A stretch of DNA of 64,000 nt, from contig NZ_CP058579.1 of the NCBI RefSeq assembly GCF_013402875.1, positions 744,001 to 808,000 on the forward strand. Direction: 5' to 3'. Positions 32,123 to 36,671 of this stretch are shown here, one piece after another (the stretch's first letter is position 1; every line of letters begins with the position of its first letter). Source of the stretch: Halorarum salinum (lineage in GTDB: Archaea > Halobacteriota > Halobacteria > Halobacteriales > Haloferacaceae). Under the pieces are notes generated by a model. That model was given only the letters and a program-made list of their open reading frames with translations. It searched no databases and was not told where the DNA came from. The position numbers were made by a program, and so were the translations under genes.

Positions 32123-32629
32123 TCAGTAGAGGCGCTCGTCGTCCGTCGACTTCCCGCCCCCCGACCCCGTCGGCTCGTCGTCCGTCACTGGTTCGTCGTC
32201 CACCGTCGGCTCGTGGAACTCGGTCGCTTCCGGGGACGGGTCGCGTCCGAGTCGCTCCGGTGGCGTCCCGGTCGGTCCCTCGAACTCCTCGCGGAGATAC
32301 GAGCCCAGAAGTCCACCGAGCGCGCCGAGCCCGACGGCGTACGCCAGCGCGAACAGCAGCGCGACGACGACGAACAGGAGGAACACGACGGCCGCGCGGG
32401 ACGGCGCCACGGCGAGGAAGAACGCACCGGCGAGGACGGCCAGCAGCGCGATCGGGACGGCGGCGATCACGCCCGACAGCGCGCCGACGCGGAGCCCCTC
32501 GTCCGTGTCGGGGCCCTGGAGGTAGCCCGCGAGCGCGCCGCCGAGCGCCGGCGAGAACGGCAGGAAGACGAGGACGACGGAGGCGACGGCGCCGATGAGG
32601 GCGTTCGTGAGGGTGTCGTCGGAGGCCAT
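32123..32629 (-). CDS. Membrane protein, DUF5518-like
   Basis: A 168-residue protein with two pairs of membrane helices: ALIGAVASVVLVFLPFSPAL with GGALAGYLQG (about 9-40), GVIAAVPIALLAVLAGAFF (about 53-72) and AVVFLLFVVVALLFALAYAV (about 79-98), then a disordered acidic tail of ~60 residues. The GGxLAGYLxG pattern followed by a Gly-rich turn is typical of small haloarchaeal DUF5518 proteins (label from memory). The start is the ATG at 32629. Convergent with trpS. Confidence 0.75.
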   Translation of the reverse strand: MASDDTLTNALIGAVASVVLVFLPFSPALGGALAGYLQGPDTDEGLRVGALSGVIAAVPIALLAVLAGAFFLAVAPSRAAVVFLLFVVVALLFALAYAVGLGALGGLLGSYLREEFEGPTGTPPERLGRDPSPEATEFHEPTVDDEPVTDDEPTGSGGGKSTDDERLY

Positions 32630-32715
32630 TCCCGGGAACTGGGCTCCGTGAGGGGATAAACACCCCGCCGACGACGGCACAAGGTCCAACCCGCCGAGGC
32701 GGCGTCTTCCGCCCG

Positions 32716-32880
32716 ATGGGAGACACCAAGGAAGGCCGCGAGGAGCAGGCGGACGAGGAGCGGAAACGCCAGGACGAACGCGACATGGAGGAGCAGGCCG
32801 AGCGCGCGGAGAAGGACGAGGAGGTCCGGGAGCGCCGGGAGGAGGAGGAGGCCGAGCGGGAACTCGGCGACGACGAGTGA
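32716..32880 (+). CDS. Small, highly charged coiled-coil protein
   Basis: A 54-residue open frame beginning MGDTKEGREEQADEE with an even Glu/Arg/Lys pattern to the end (ERELGDDE). It should form one long helix or coiled coil. Codon use matches neighbouring genes (third-position G/C) and the ATG-TGA frame has no other reading. It is isolated between a divergent membrane-protein gene and the pheST leader. Function is unknown; similar tiny charged proteins occur across haloarchaea. Confidence 0.6.
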   Translation: MGDTKEGREEQADEERKRQDERDMEEQAERAEKDEEVRERREEEEAERELGDDE

Positions 32881-33014
32881 GCGGTTCGGGCTGACGCGTC
32901 GTCGACCGGCCGCCGCTCTGAACGAGCGGTGATGAATCGGCCGGAACGCGTTACCGACGGAACAGCCACGTCGCCACGGAATCGCCTACGACCGCACCGA
33001 GCCACCACGACAAC

Positions 33015-33022
33015 GCTTTTGT
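33015..33022 (+). promoter_or_regulatory. TATA-like box of the pheST leader transcript
   Basis: GCTTTTGT lies 24-31 bases ahead of the ATG of the 26-codon leader ORF. That spacing would place transcription start at or just before the ATG, as expected for leaderless haloarchaeal mRNAs. Confidence 0.4.
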
Positions 33023-33045
33023 CCGATCGGCCCGCAGCCAGCGAC

Positions 33046-33126
33046 ATGGCACCCGAACCCGCCGTCGACCGCACCGCCCCCGAGACCGCGACCGGCGGGT
33101 TCGCCTTCTTCTTCCGCCGCGCCTGA
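33046..33126 (+). CDS. Phe-rich leader peptide upstream of pheST
   Basis: A 26-codon ORF encodes a peptide ending GGFAFFFRRA. Four Phe codons (TTC GCC TTC TTC TTC) lie at 33100-33114, just before a hairpin that overlaps the stop codon. It lies about 210 bases ahead of pheS, the gene for the Phe-charging enzyme, on the same strand. The layout is that of a bacterial pheST attenuator leader (pheM in E. coli). Whether archaea use this mechanism here is an inference; the ORF, codons and hairpin are directly visible. Confidence 0.6.
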   Translation: MAPEPAVDRTAPETATGGFAFFFRRA

Positions 33127-33160
33127 GCGGCGGACCCGAGCGGGACCCGGGAGGGCCCGC
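33113..33160 (+). promoter_or_regulatory. Hairpins after the Phe codons (candidate attenuator)
   Basis: TCCGCCGC (33113-33120) and GCGGCGGA (33127-33134) form a perfect 8-bp stem with a 6-base loop that includes the leader stop codon. A second stem follows: GCGGG-A-CCC (33140-33148) with GGGCCCGC (33153-33160), one bulged A. GGCGGCGGC at about 33181-33189 could pair with the first left arm as an alternative structure. Confidence 0.45.
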
Positions 33161-33333
33161 GACGCGAAACCGTTCGGTTCGGCGGCGGCTCGGAGTCCCG
33201 TCGTTCTCCGGGTCGCGGACGCTCGACCGGGGTTCGCTCCGGTCGACGACGAACACTCGTGCGGCGTTCCGTCGCCGCCCGAGACGGTAACGGAACGCCT
33301 ATCGGACGACACGCCACACACCAAGCCAAGAAG

Positions 33334-34851
33334 ATGCCACGCTCAGAGGCAGAGGTCGCGCTCCTGCGGGCCGCCAGCGCGACCGACGCGAAGACGGTCG
33401 AACAGCTCGCCGCGGAGACGGACCTGAAGCCGGAGACGGTCACGCGGGCCGCCTTCGACCTCCGTGACGACGGTCTCGTCGCGGTCGAAGAGACGGTCGA
33501 GGAGTCCGCGACGATCACCGACGAGGGGCGGACGTACGCAGAGGAGGGGCTCCCCGAGGTGCGGCTCTACCGCGCCGCGCTCGATGCAGGCGACGACGGG
33601 GACCCCGTCGAGATGGGGCGGGTCATCGGCGCGTCGGGCCTCGAAGGGCCCGAGGTCGACATCGCGCTCTCGAACTTCGCCCGGAAGGGGTACGGGAGCA
33701 TCGACTCGGGGAAGCTCTCGGCGGACCCCGACGCCGACCCCGACGCCGACCCCGACGCCGACCCCGAGGCCGCCGCGCTCGCCGCCCTGGCGGCCGACGA
33801 GTCCGTCGCGGACGACGACGTCCTCTCGCAACTCGACCGCCGCGGGCTCGTCGAAGTGACCGAGCGCACCGTCCGCTCGGTGACGCTCACCGACGACGGC
33901 GTGACCGCCCTGATGGAGGGCGTCGAGGCCGCCGAGACCGCCGACCGACTGACGCCCGAGATGCTCACCTCCGGCGAGTGGCGGGAGGCGGAGTTCTCCG
34001 AGTACAACGTCGAGGCCGACGCCCCCGAGATCGAGGGCGGGCGGAAGCACGTCCTCCGCGGGATGGCCGACCGCGTGAAGGACGTGCTCGTCGGCATGGG
34101 GTTCCGGGAGATGGAGGGGCCCCACGCCGACGCGGACTTCTGGATCAACGACTGCCTGTTCATGCCCCAGGACCACCCGGCGCGGACCCACTGGGACCGA
34201 TTCGCGCTCGACGTGCCGCCGGTTCGGGAGCTTCCCGAGCGGCTGGTCGACCGCGTCGAGGCGACCCACCGCGAGGGCGTCGGCGAGGACGGCGACGGCT
34301 ACCACTCGCCGTGGTCCGAGGAGTTCGCGCGGGCCATCGCGCTCCGCGGGCACACCACGTCGCTGACGATGCGCTACCTCTCGGGGTACGCCGGGGCGGA
34401 CGTCGACCCGCCCAAGCGCTACTTCTCCGTCGAGAAGGCGTACCGCAACGACACGCTGGACGCGACCCACCTGCTGGAGTTCTTCCAGATCGAGGGGTGG
34501 GTGATGGCCGAGGACCTCTCGGTGCGTGACCTGATGGGCACCTTCGAGGAGTTCTACCGGCAGTTCGGCATCACCGACATCGAGTTCAAGCCGCACTACA
34601 ACCCCTACACGGAGCCGTCCTTCGAGCTGTTCGGACGGCACCCCGAGACGGGCGAGATCATCGAGATCGGGAACTCCGGCATCTTCCGCGACGAGGTGCT
34701 GGACACGCTCGGCGTCGACTGCGACGTGATGGCCTGGGGGCTCGCGCTCGAACGGCTCGCCATGCTCACCACGGGCGCGGAGGACATCCGCGACCTGCAC
34801 GGCACGCTCGCGGACCTGGAGTTCCTGCGGAACGCGGAGGTGACCTACTGA
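33334..34851 (+). CDS. pheS: Phenylalanyl-tRNA synthetase, alpha subunit
   Basis: A 505-residue catalytic subunit. The N-terminal ~200 residues contain winged-helix tRNA-contact domains. The class II core shows motif 2-3 regions: MEGPHADADFWINDCLFMPQ, RYFSVEKAYRNDTLDATH, GNSGIFRDEVL and GLALERLAMLTTG. Between two N-terminal helices is a run of Asp-Ala-Asp-Pro units encoded by a 12-base tandem repeat. The ATG at 33334 is chosen; the upstream frame is open but would cut into the leader. The stop shares one base with pheT (TGATG). Confidence 0.97.
   Translation: MPRSEAEVALLRAASATDAKTVEQLAAETDLKPETVTRAAFDLRDDGLVAVEETVEESATITDEGRTYAEEGLPEVRLYRAALDAGDDGDPVEMGRVIGASGLEGPEVDIALSNFARKGYGSIDSGKLSADPDADPDADPDADPEAAALAALAADESVADDDVLSQLDRRGLVEVTERTVRSVTLTDDGVTALMEGVEAAETADRLTPEMLTSGEWREAEFSEYNVEADAPEIEGGRKHVLRGMADRVKDVLVGMGFREMEGPHADADFWINDCLFMPQDHPARTHWDRFALDVPPVRELPERLVDRVEATHREGVGEDGDGYHSPWSEEFARAIALRGHTTSLTMRYLSGYAGADVDPPKRYFSVEKAYRNDTLDATHLLEFFQIEGWVMAEDLSVRDLMGTFEEFYRQFGITDIEFKPHYNPYTEPSFELFGRHPETGEIIEIGNSGIFRDEVLDTLGVDCDVMAWGLALERLAMLTTGAEDIRDLHGTLADLEFLRNAEVTY
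33724..33771 (+). repeat. 12-bp tandem repeat inside pheS
   Basis: The unit GACCCCGACGCC recurs four times in a row (last unit slightly changed), encoding (Asp-Pro-Asp-Ala) repeats in a linker of PheS. The array keeps the reading frame and probably varies in length between strains by slippage. Confidence 0.75.
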
Positions 34852-36671
34852 TGCCGGTCGTCGACATCGACACGGACGAACTGCGGGAACTGACCGGCCA
34901 CGGGGACAAGAGCGACGAGGAGTTCGAGGAGGACCTGTTCGCGCTCGGCCTCGAGTTCGAGGGCGAGACCGAGGACGGCGAACTCCAGTTCGAGTTCGGC
35001 CCGGATCGGCTCGACCGGCTCTCCGTCGAGGGGGTCGCGCGGTCGCTCAGGTACCAGTACGGCGACGCCCGGGGCGTCCACGTCCCGGACCCGAACGAGC
35101 CGGACTGGACCATCGAGGTGGACGCGTCGGTGCCCGACGAGCGGCCGTTCGTCACCGGCGCGGTCGTCCGGGGGCTGGACCTCGACGAGTCGGCGCTCGA
35201 CTCGCTCATCCAGCTCCAGGAGAAGCTGCACGCGACGATGGGACGCGAGCGCGCGAAGGGCGCCATCGGCATCCACGACCTCACGATGCTGAAGGGCCAG
35301 CAGTTCTCACAGGAGGGCGAGAGCTCCGGGACGGTCGAGGGCCCGGCATCCAGGCTCGAGGGCACGCCCAACACCATCACCTACCGCGGGGTCGACCCCG
35401 ACGGCAACCGGTTCGTCCCGCTGGACTCGGACGCAGAGCTCACGCCCGCCGAGGTGCTCGAACGGCACCCCACCGGCGGGAAGTACGCTGACCTCGTCCG
35501 CGACCTCGACCGTTACCCGGCCATCTACGACGAACTCGGCCTGTTCTCGTTCCCGCCGGTCATCAACGGCCGCCGGACCGAGGTGTCGACCGAGTCGCGG
35601 GACCTGTTCGTCGAACTCACCGGCACCGACCAGTGGACCATCGACCGGATGTGCGTCATCATCTGCTACGCGCTCGTCGCGCGCGGGGGGACGCTGGAGG
35701 AGGTCGAGGTCGTCTACGACGACGGCGCGACCCACCCCGACGAGTACGGGCCCGAACTGATCCGCCCGGACCTGGAGACCGACGAGAAGTCGGTGAGCCA
35801 CGACCGCATCGAGTCGATCCTCGGCGTCGAGCTGGAGCGCGACGAGGTGGTCGACCTGTTCGAACGATCCGGACTCGACGCGACGTACGCGCACGGCGGT
35901 GCTGAGGCGGCCACTGACGCCGCCGAAGTAGCGGAGGGGACCGTCTACGACGTTACCATTCCGCCGTACCGCGTCGACGTGCTCCACCCGCTGGACCTGA
36001 TCGACGACGTGGGCCGGGCGTACGGCTTCGGCACGCTCGAACCGCGATACCCCGACATCGGCACGATCGGCGGGCGCCACGAGCGCTCGCGGCTGGAGGA
36101 CGCCGTCCGGACGAGCCTCGTCGGCCTGGGCTTTCAGGACACGCTGAACTTCCACATGACCAGCTCCGGGGAGAACTACGACCGGATGGGGCTCGCTGAG
36201 GGGAGCGACGCCTTCGGCGCCGGCGAGCGCGCCGAGATCACCTCGCCGTACAGCGAGGAGTACACCCAGTTGCGGACGTGGGCGCTCCCCTCGCTCGCGC
36301 AGGTGCTGGAGAACAACACCCACCGGTCGTACCCGCAGGACCTCGCTGAGGTGGGCTTCGTCGCCCGCCGCGACGACGATGTGAACACGCGCGTCGCGGA
36401 GTCCCGCCACGTCGCCGGGGTGCTGGCGCGGACTGACGCGACCTACGAGGACGCGAAGGCGAGGCTCCAGGCGCTGTGTGACGACTTCGACGCGGCGCTG
36501 GAGACGCCCGCGACCGATCACCCGAGCTTCATTTCGGGTCGAGCCGCGGACGTGGCCATCGACGGGGAGTCCGTCGGCGTGATCGGGGAACTACACCCCG
36601 AGGTGCTGGTCGAGCACGACGTGGAGGTCCCCGTCGTCGCGTTCGAGTTCGACCTCTCCGCGCTGGCGTAG
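34851..36671 (+). CDS. pheT: Phenylalanyl-tRNA synthetase, beta subunit
   Basis: A 606-residue subunit that, with PheS, charges tRNA-Phe and hydrolyses mischarged Tyr-tRNA. It contains B3/B4 editing segments (FSFPPVINGRRTEVSTESRD), B5 (YDVTIPPYRVDVLHPLDLID) and the class II-like core near the end (FHMTSSGENYDRMGL, ITSPYSEEYTQLRTWALPSL). It overlaps pheS by a single base. No anticodon-binding C-terminal domain of bacterial type is present, as expected for the archaeal form. Confidence 0.97.
   Translation: MPVVDIDTDELRELTGHGDKSDEEFEEDLFALGLEFEGETEDGELQFEFGPDRLDRLSVEGVARSLRYQYGDARGVHVPDPNEPDWTIEVDASVPDERPFVTGAVVRGLDLDESALDSLIQLQEKLHATMGRERAKGAIGIHDLTMLKGQQFSQEGESSGTVEGPASRLEGTPNTITYRGVDPDGNRFVPLDSDAELTPAEVLERHPTGGKYADLVRDLDRYPAIYDELGLFSFPPVINGRRTEVSTESRDLFVELTGTDQWTIDRMCVIICYALVARGGTLEEVEVVYDDGATHPDEYGPELIRPDLETDEKSVSHDRIESILGVELERDEVVDLFERSGLDATYAHGGAEAATDAAEVAEGTVYDVTIPPYRVDVLHPLDLIDDVGRAYGFGTLEPRYPDIGTIGGRHERSRLEDAVRTSLVGLGFQDTLNFHMTSSGENYDRMGLAEGSDAFGAGERAEITSPYSEEYTQLRTWALPSLAQVLENNTHRSYPQDLAEVGFVARRDDDVNTRVAESRHVAGVLARTDATYEDAKARLQALCDDFDAALETPATDHPSFISGRAADVAIDGESVGVIGELHPEVLVEHDVEVPVVAFEFDLSALA

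Follow-up and report, generated by a model that had tools for sequence, protein, structure and literature searches.

Phenylalanine-codon leader ORFs and covarying RNA structures upstream of pheST in haloarchaea, a candidate archaeal form of leader-peptide attenuation

Amino-acid-specific leader peptides are a textbook mechanism of bacteria, and a short Phe-rich open reading frame (ORF) located in front of the phenylalanine--tRNA ligase genes of Halorarum salinum raises the question of whether an archaeon controls these genes in a comparable way. The window analysed is a stretch of 64,000 nucleotides of this genome (contig NZ_CP058579.1, positions 744,001 to 808,000); positions given here count from its first nucleotide, and features lie on the plus strand unless otherwise indicated. 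The window encodes the alpha subunit of the ligase, PheS (33334-34851; NF003210, 589 bits for a cut-off of 350), and the beta subunit, PheT (34851-36671; NCBIfam TIGR00471), preceded at a distance of 207 nt by a leader ORF of 26 codons followed by TGA (33046-33126; MAPEPAVDRTAPETATGGFAFFFRRA). The predicted peptide terminates in F-A-F-F-F-R-R-A, and the cluster F-A-F-F-F (TTC GCC TTC TTC TTC, 33100-33114) is the proposed stall site, in view of its sequence and of its conserved distance to an RNA element described below. A putative promoter, composed of a BRE-like ACAACG and a TATA-like CTTTT, is found at 33010-33020, and the first T of its TTTT (33017-33020) is 29 nt upstream of the leader ATG, a spacing typical of leaderless transcripts. 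The ORF, the TATA-like box at leaderless spacing, the Phe-rich end and the adjacent pheS had been pointed out in a first-pass annotation, which likened the arrangement to bacterial attenuation of pheST, and all four are present in the sequence. Further upstream, a DUF5518 gene is encoded on the minus strand (32123-32689), and a short charged ORF with many Glu and Arg residues among its 54 codons and with no family match (32717-32881) lies between it and the leader.

The conservation of this ORF was assessed in 110 haloarchaeal pheS loci from two sets (30 and 80 loci), at least nine loci of the second set duplicating genomes of the first. With a leader defined as an ORF that starts at an ATG, encodes 15-45 aa, has two or more Phe among its last 14 residues and is located at most 420 nt away, a homologous Phe-rich ORF was found in 82 of the 110 loci (74 unique ORFs). 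Recurrence of the ORF in relatives had been stipulated beforehand, and it recurs on this scale together with a covarying RNA structure. Leaders are also present in 17 of 29 additional pheS upstream stretches from relatives, and both collections combined place the leader in 12 of the 17 family codes sampled (none in codes f2, f9, f11, f13 and f14). A stricter rule (ATG, 15-45 aa, at least three Phe among the last 10 residues) recovered 79/110 pheS loci versus 0/110 reverse strands and 0/135 other upstream windows, the latter being windows upstream of hisS, pheA, tyrS/trpS, trpS2 and trpA matches that were placed by family match rather than by gene start and that consist, for trpA and for part of the others, of coding DNA. 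The consensus, as judged by eye, reads M-A-S-E-P...T-x-G-F-G-F-F-F-A, and the first T/A-rich motif upstream starts at -30 in 41 of the 74 unique leaders and at -29 in a further 28 (69/74 together).

An ATG-initiated leader is absent from 28/110 loci, or from 25/101 once duplicates are removed and the GTG leader of L060 is counted. On a pheS tree of these 101 loci, leader presence changes 11 times, at least nine of the changes falling on supported branches. Two leaders are apparently decaying, namely that of L011, in which the start codon ATG has become ACG, and that of L109, in which the C-terminus appears frame-shifted and the RNA element is intact. Codon usage in the leaders is also peculiar: TTT accounts for 58 of the 270 Phe codons in the 74 unique leaders versus 76 of the 1513 Phe codons in the corresponding pheS genes (Fisher p = 2e-16, for sequences that are related), and the longest T run reaches at least 5 nt in 35/74 unique leader ORFs. 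This excess of TTT could possibly reflect a pause signal or slow decoding.

Two RNA structures were found to be conserved with the leader. The first, designated S0, is formed within the ORF. Indeed, the G-F-x codons are matched by their reverse complement at leader codons 3-5, and both arms change together, as GAACCC/GGGTTC, GAATCC/GGATTC (Natrialbales type) or GAACGC/GCGTTC (Halorubrum type). In H. salinum, the 5' arm CGAACCCGCCG (codons 3-7, 33054-33064) and the 3' arm CGGCGGGTTCG (33093-33103), which contains the first Phe codon, can pair into an 11-bp helix. Of the 74 unique ORFs, 69 are predicted to form a helix of 7 bp or more; the mean length is 9.1 bp, versus 5.9 for shuffled 5' arms and 7.6 for arms swapped between loci. 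In the fixed register, 77.6% of the cells are paired (21-55% in slid registers), the 75 double-changed cells compare with a shuffle mean of 33 (0/500 shuffles as high), and the covariation score is 0.237 versus 0.130 in shuffles (0/500, relatedness of the sequences being ignored). The number of additional pair types in S0 does not exceed that of the shuffles (277/500). Since codons 3-5 pair with the G-F-x codons, the conservation of the leader N-terminus requires no function of the peptide.

The second structure, P1-P2, is located 3' of the stop codon and consists of a P1 stem, an internal loop (5'-YGGAN/3'-NGAAA) and a P2 stem. In H. salinum, the alignment places the P1 5' arm GAGCGG at 33125-33130, overlapping the stop codon, the conserved GGYGGA strand (here GGCGGA) at 33129-33134, the P2 hairpin region, of variable length and shifted in this genus (GCGGG/CCCGC), at 33135-33165, the conserved GAAACC strand at 33166-33171, and the P1 3' arm CCGTTC, which starts at the CC of the latter and for which covariation was detected, at 33170-33175. 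In an alignment (A1) of 70 of the 74 unique rows (L007, L019, L036 and L042 omitted), 90.2% of the P1-P2 cells are paired, with 170 double-changed cells and a covariation score of 0.532, versus at most 47.3%, 53 and 0.154, respectively, in controls slid by 1-3 columns; none of 500 shuffles matched the observed score, relatedness being again ignored. A covariance model of the element (R1) was trained on the 59 rows of a second alignment (A2), from which rows with a long or mis-anchored P2 and near-duplicates were also removed, and it matches the H. salinum locus with 49.6 bits. At E<=0.05, R1 matched 78 of the 82 loci with a leader ORF versus only one of the 28 without (L109, whose ORF appears by eye to be frame-shifted). 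In the 60 genomes scanned, every one of the 24 matches with E<1e-3 adjoins pheS by its coordinates, as do two (G040, G042) of the 13 weaker matches (E 0.018-0.094). The leader ORF and the P1-P2 element are lost jointly: in independent pairs of the tree, they differ together in eight cases and apart in none, with no difference in two (p = 0.008). Taken with S0, these results indicate that the Phe leader ORF and its RNA are, very probably, genuine and conserved regulatory features.

Thermodynamic prediction fits this picture less well. Nearest-neighbour folding of the H. salinum locus with ViennaRNA does not favour P1, which is a negative result: P1 has a probability of about 7e-5 in the free RNA, falling to 6e-7 once a stalled ribosome is included, and forcing P1 gives -32.3 instead of -39.5 kcal/mol, a cost of 7 kcal/mol. 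Over 72 loci, the mean probability of P1 is 0.45 in the free RNA, 0.37 with a stalled ribosome and 0 with a ribosome at the stop codon, this last value being set by construction. Sheared G-A pairs and high salt are not fully credited by ViennaRNA.

The regulatory hairpins named in the first-pass annotation were others, and the conserved folds are instead S0 (33054-33064/33093-33103) and the post-stop element (33125-33130/33170-33175). The perfect 8-bp hairpin across the stop codon, H1 (33113-33120/33127-33134, loop GCCTGA), is indeed present and excludes P1; its predicted probability is 0.9997 in the free H. salinum RNA and it is also predicted in L004, from the same genus, but it is not conserved beyond that genus. 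The P1 5' arm pairs upstream with a mean probability of only 0.15 over 72 loci, and H1 was rejected as a general switch partner. Likewise, the alternative partner GGCGGCGGC exists at 33181-33189, but no conserved counterpart was seen in relatives. With regard to termination, folds from GAAACC onwards revealed no common hairpin or conserved partner of the kind expected for a bacterial-type terminator, and no U-run was seen by eye in the leader-to-pheS sequences among those listed. The hairpins first proposed are not the conserved ones and a terminator with a U-run was not seen, so that attenuation, if the term is restricted to the termination of transcription, is unproven. The bacterial-style model is thus upheld as far as a conserved Phe-codon leader with covarying RNA is concerned, but not in its terminator and hairpins. 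Searches against Rfam matched only tRNAs in the 64-kb window at the gathering score; the interval 33000-33340 gave four matches when E up to 5 was allowed, all to unrelated families and far under gathering scores, and six related loci gave two matches with E up to 1, both unrelated. Kink-turn and T-box readings of GGYGGA/GAAACC do not fit the consensus sequences of these motifs.

The position of the element relative to the Phe codons is the main basis of the mechanism proposed here. Counted from its 3' end, the last Phe codon is separated from GGYGGA by 15.6 +/- 1.6 nt (72 of 75 unique regions, the three without the element being dropped), a spacing that none of 20,000 permutations, which ignore relatedness, reproduced as tightly. 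The stop codon, for its part, is found 2-12 nt before GGYGGA, and this distance shrinks as more codons follow the last Phe (r = -0.79). P1 starts four nt before GGYGGA, that is, about 11-12 nt past the last Phe codon, and toeprints place the leading edge of a ribosome some 10 nt past the codon in the A site. With these values, a ribosome stalled on any of the Phe codons would leave P1 free and a ribosome at the stop codon would cover it. The mRNA would begin, leaderless, at the ATG of the short ORF, with the Phe cluster among its last codons. When Phe-tRNA(Phe) is scarce, the ribosome would stall at the cluster, its front ending shortly before the P1 5' arm, and P1-P2 would form; when it is abundant, the ribosome would reach the stop codon and occupy the P1 5' arm, preventing P1-P2. 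The folded element would lead to higher expression of pheST. S0, with the first Phe codon inside it and 5' of the U-rich Phe tract, could be a default or pause structure that translation opens, and the output step could be transcription termination or translation. The comparison of loci supplies the ORF, its promoter spacing, the covariation of S0 and of P1-P2, the Phe-to-element spacing and the joint loss, from which we infer the stalling, the switching, the output step and whether expression goes up or down. As judged from these sequence patterns, pheST is probably controlled by a cis-acting, Phe-sensing leader through ribosome stalling on Phe codons, and a new archaeal form of leader-peptide attenuation is the best reading of the locus.

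The leader RNA could also act by a route other than P1-P2 switching, the stalled ribosome either shielding the RNA from factor-dependent termination or cleavage, as in the bacterial tna control and with FttA/aCPSF1 as a candidate factor, or altering reinitiation at pheS. The lack of a U-run and of a conserved 3:4 terminator partner would fit such a route, and so would L185, which retains a Phe leader close to pheS without the element or the second promoter. However, pure shielding requires neither the strong covariation of P1-P2 and S0 nor their placement relative to the Phe codons, and we regard this explanation as rather unlikely. L185 (G046:C1:390626-391326, minus strand), in which about 52 nt separate the leader from pheS and both the P1-P2 element and the promoter-like motif are missing, represents a natural minimal case.

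A further possibility is that the leader is transcribed but irrelevant, pheST being driven by a promoter-like element of its own. Such an element is found at 33292-33303 in H. salinum (GGAACGCCTATC) and, by eye, most loci have it as GGAACYGYTAAC some 35-45 nt ahead of pheS, with or without a leader; a crude regular expression retrieved it in 86/110 loci, including 19 of the 28 devoid of a leader. Part of the pheST transcription may therefore start downstream of the leader, and a second, leader-independent pheS promoter is likely in many species, judging from this motif. A differential RNA-seq study of Haloferax volcanii reported 16 small ORFs among 97 long 5'-UTRs (PMC4983044, Table 2), and its data, as far as they were covered, include a 26-aa upstream ORF (uORF) in the 5'-UTR of pheS (HVO_2948) with no further transcription start site (TSS) at pheS. 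These TSS data agree, by analogy, with a leader and pheST carried on one transcript. The requirement of the initial proposal that pheST be transcribed from upstream of the leader is thus supported in H. volcanii (PMC4983044, in the part covered) but complicated by the conserved element before pheS. An irrelevant leader is, on balance, very improbable, in view of the H. volcanii data, of the lack of a clear promoter-like element in Halolamina-type loci (L024, L025, L098) and in L185, and of covariation and spacing that call for a function. Still less credible is a functional micropeptide acting in trans, which the conserved N-terminus and Phe-rich C-terminus might suggest, but whose N-terminus is explained by pairing with the G-F-x codons with which it co-varies, whose middle is variable, whose position before pheS is constant and whose ORF disappears along with the RNA element.

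The closest known counterpart is the pheM leader of Escherichia coli, which is the bacterial pheST attenuator. Both systems have a short Phe-rich ORF before pheST, hairpins at and after the ORF and the same targets; the haloarchaeal leader differs by its predicted leaderless mRNA, by the lack of a U run after the hairpin, by S0 and GGYGGA/GAAACC, and by the absence of a match to an Rfam leader family at the cut-offs applied. It has the cluster of Phe codons that characterizes bacterial leader-peptide attenuators, but no intrinsic terminator like theirs was found in the regions folded. T-box riboswitches regulate aminoacyl-tRNA synthetase genes, before which the haloarchaeal leader is likewise located, by sensing tRNA charging, but they bind the tRNA directly and have no Phe-codon ORF; moreover, the haloarchaeal GGYGGA, mostly GGCGGA, is paired locally with GAAACC instead of providing the UGGN bulge by which a T-box contacts the tRNA end, and gives no T-box match in Rfam.

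A second leader of this kind was found before the gene coding for an auxiliary tryptophan--tRNA ligase (trpS2; NF008927). A W-R-W type leader, for instance MQSAPWRWRSHASGADSPVAVVAAA, is present in 26 of the 28 loci L203-L230 (L217 has none and that of L224 is atypical), and the pattern W-R-W ... G-A-D-S is shared by these loci and by L324 and L325. An in-ORF stem is predicted between codons 2-5 and a GGGAGCGGAC-type sequence, with at least 8 bp in 24/26 unique ORFs and compensating changes; its 3' arm begins mostly 6-15 nt past the last Trp codon, and a pyrimidine-rich motif, GCTCACTYCGYTYTCTC, is conserved after the stop codon. Among the five of ten matching plasmid records that were examined, the leader is encoded in Haloferax mediterranei pHME505 and in Natronorubrum aibiense and absent in three. 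No trpS2 match was obtained in the H. salinum genome. In Streptomyces, an auxiliary trpRS gene is reportedly controlled by ribosome-mediated attenuation; there too, a Trp-codon leader precedes a second TrpRS gene, but the organism belongs to another domain and the haloarchaeal leader has an in-ORF hairpin with Trp codons in its loop and the pyrimidine-rich motif after its stop codon.

Leaders of this type were not detected in front of related genes. No His-rich leader was found before hisS (24 loci; chance ORFs only in L250, L252 and L254). For pheA, 25 loci yielded chance ORFs (L267, L272 and L276) but no conserved F/Y/W leader. Nor was a leader found in the 30 loci of tyrS and the main trpS, of which L148, L153, L154, L155, L159 and L170 contain chance ORFs, and the 16 stretches upstream of the trp operon have no W-rich leader in common. 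The tyrS/trpS set includes L156 and L157, two loci of the second trpS that do carry Trp leaders, which the rule applied here overlooked.

The Trp leader also has a possible counterpart in the H. volcanii data, which include, in the part covered, a 23-aa uORF before trpS (HVO_A0127, tryptophan--tRNA ligase) with no additional TSS at the main gene (PMC4983044). In Haloferax relatives, leaders of 26 and 23 aa have a mass and pI similar to those of the two published uORFs, which we infer to be the Phe and Trp leaders, the part of the table covered giving lengths and no sequences (PMC4983044). Within the portion of that article covered, the word "attenuation" has 0 occurrences and the uORFs are not linked to Phe or Trp codons. 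A literature search on leader-peptide control of archaeal tRNA synthetases returned nothing on point (including PMC11481537 and PMC12482152, covered in part), which is weak evidence of absence for a search that covered few subscription papers.

In summary, the Phe and Trp leaders add two candidate RNA families, unmatched in the Rfam searches, and would explain otherwise odd uORFs of a published TSS map. There is about an even chance that they represent a general haloarchaeal class of ribosome-sensing leader peptides on leaderless mRNAs, in at least two versions (Phe/pheST and Trp/auxiliary trpS), which would combine a new RNA switch, made of an in-ORF stem holding or flanking the sensed codons and of a GGYGGA/GAAACC hairpin positioned at the front of the stalled ribosome, with the absence of a bacterial-type terminator. 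If true, this class would be the archaeal counterpart of attenuation dependent on transcription-translation coupling. Haloferax offers a compact and genetically tractable system for the Phe leader. An archaeal case would mean that tRNA charging is read through ribosome position in archaea, and would require that transcription and translation be coupled, or linked in some equivalent way, in a domain with a different termination machinery.
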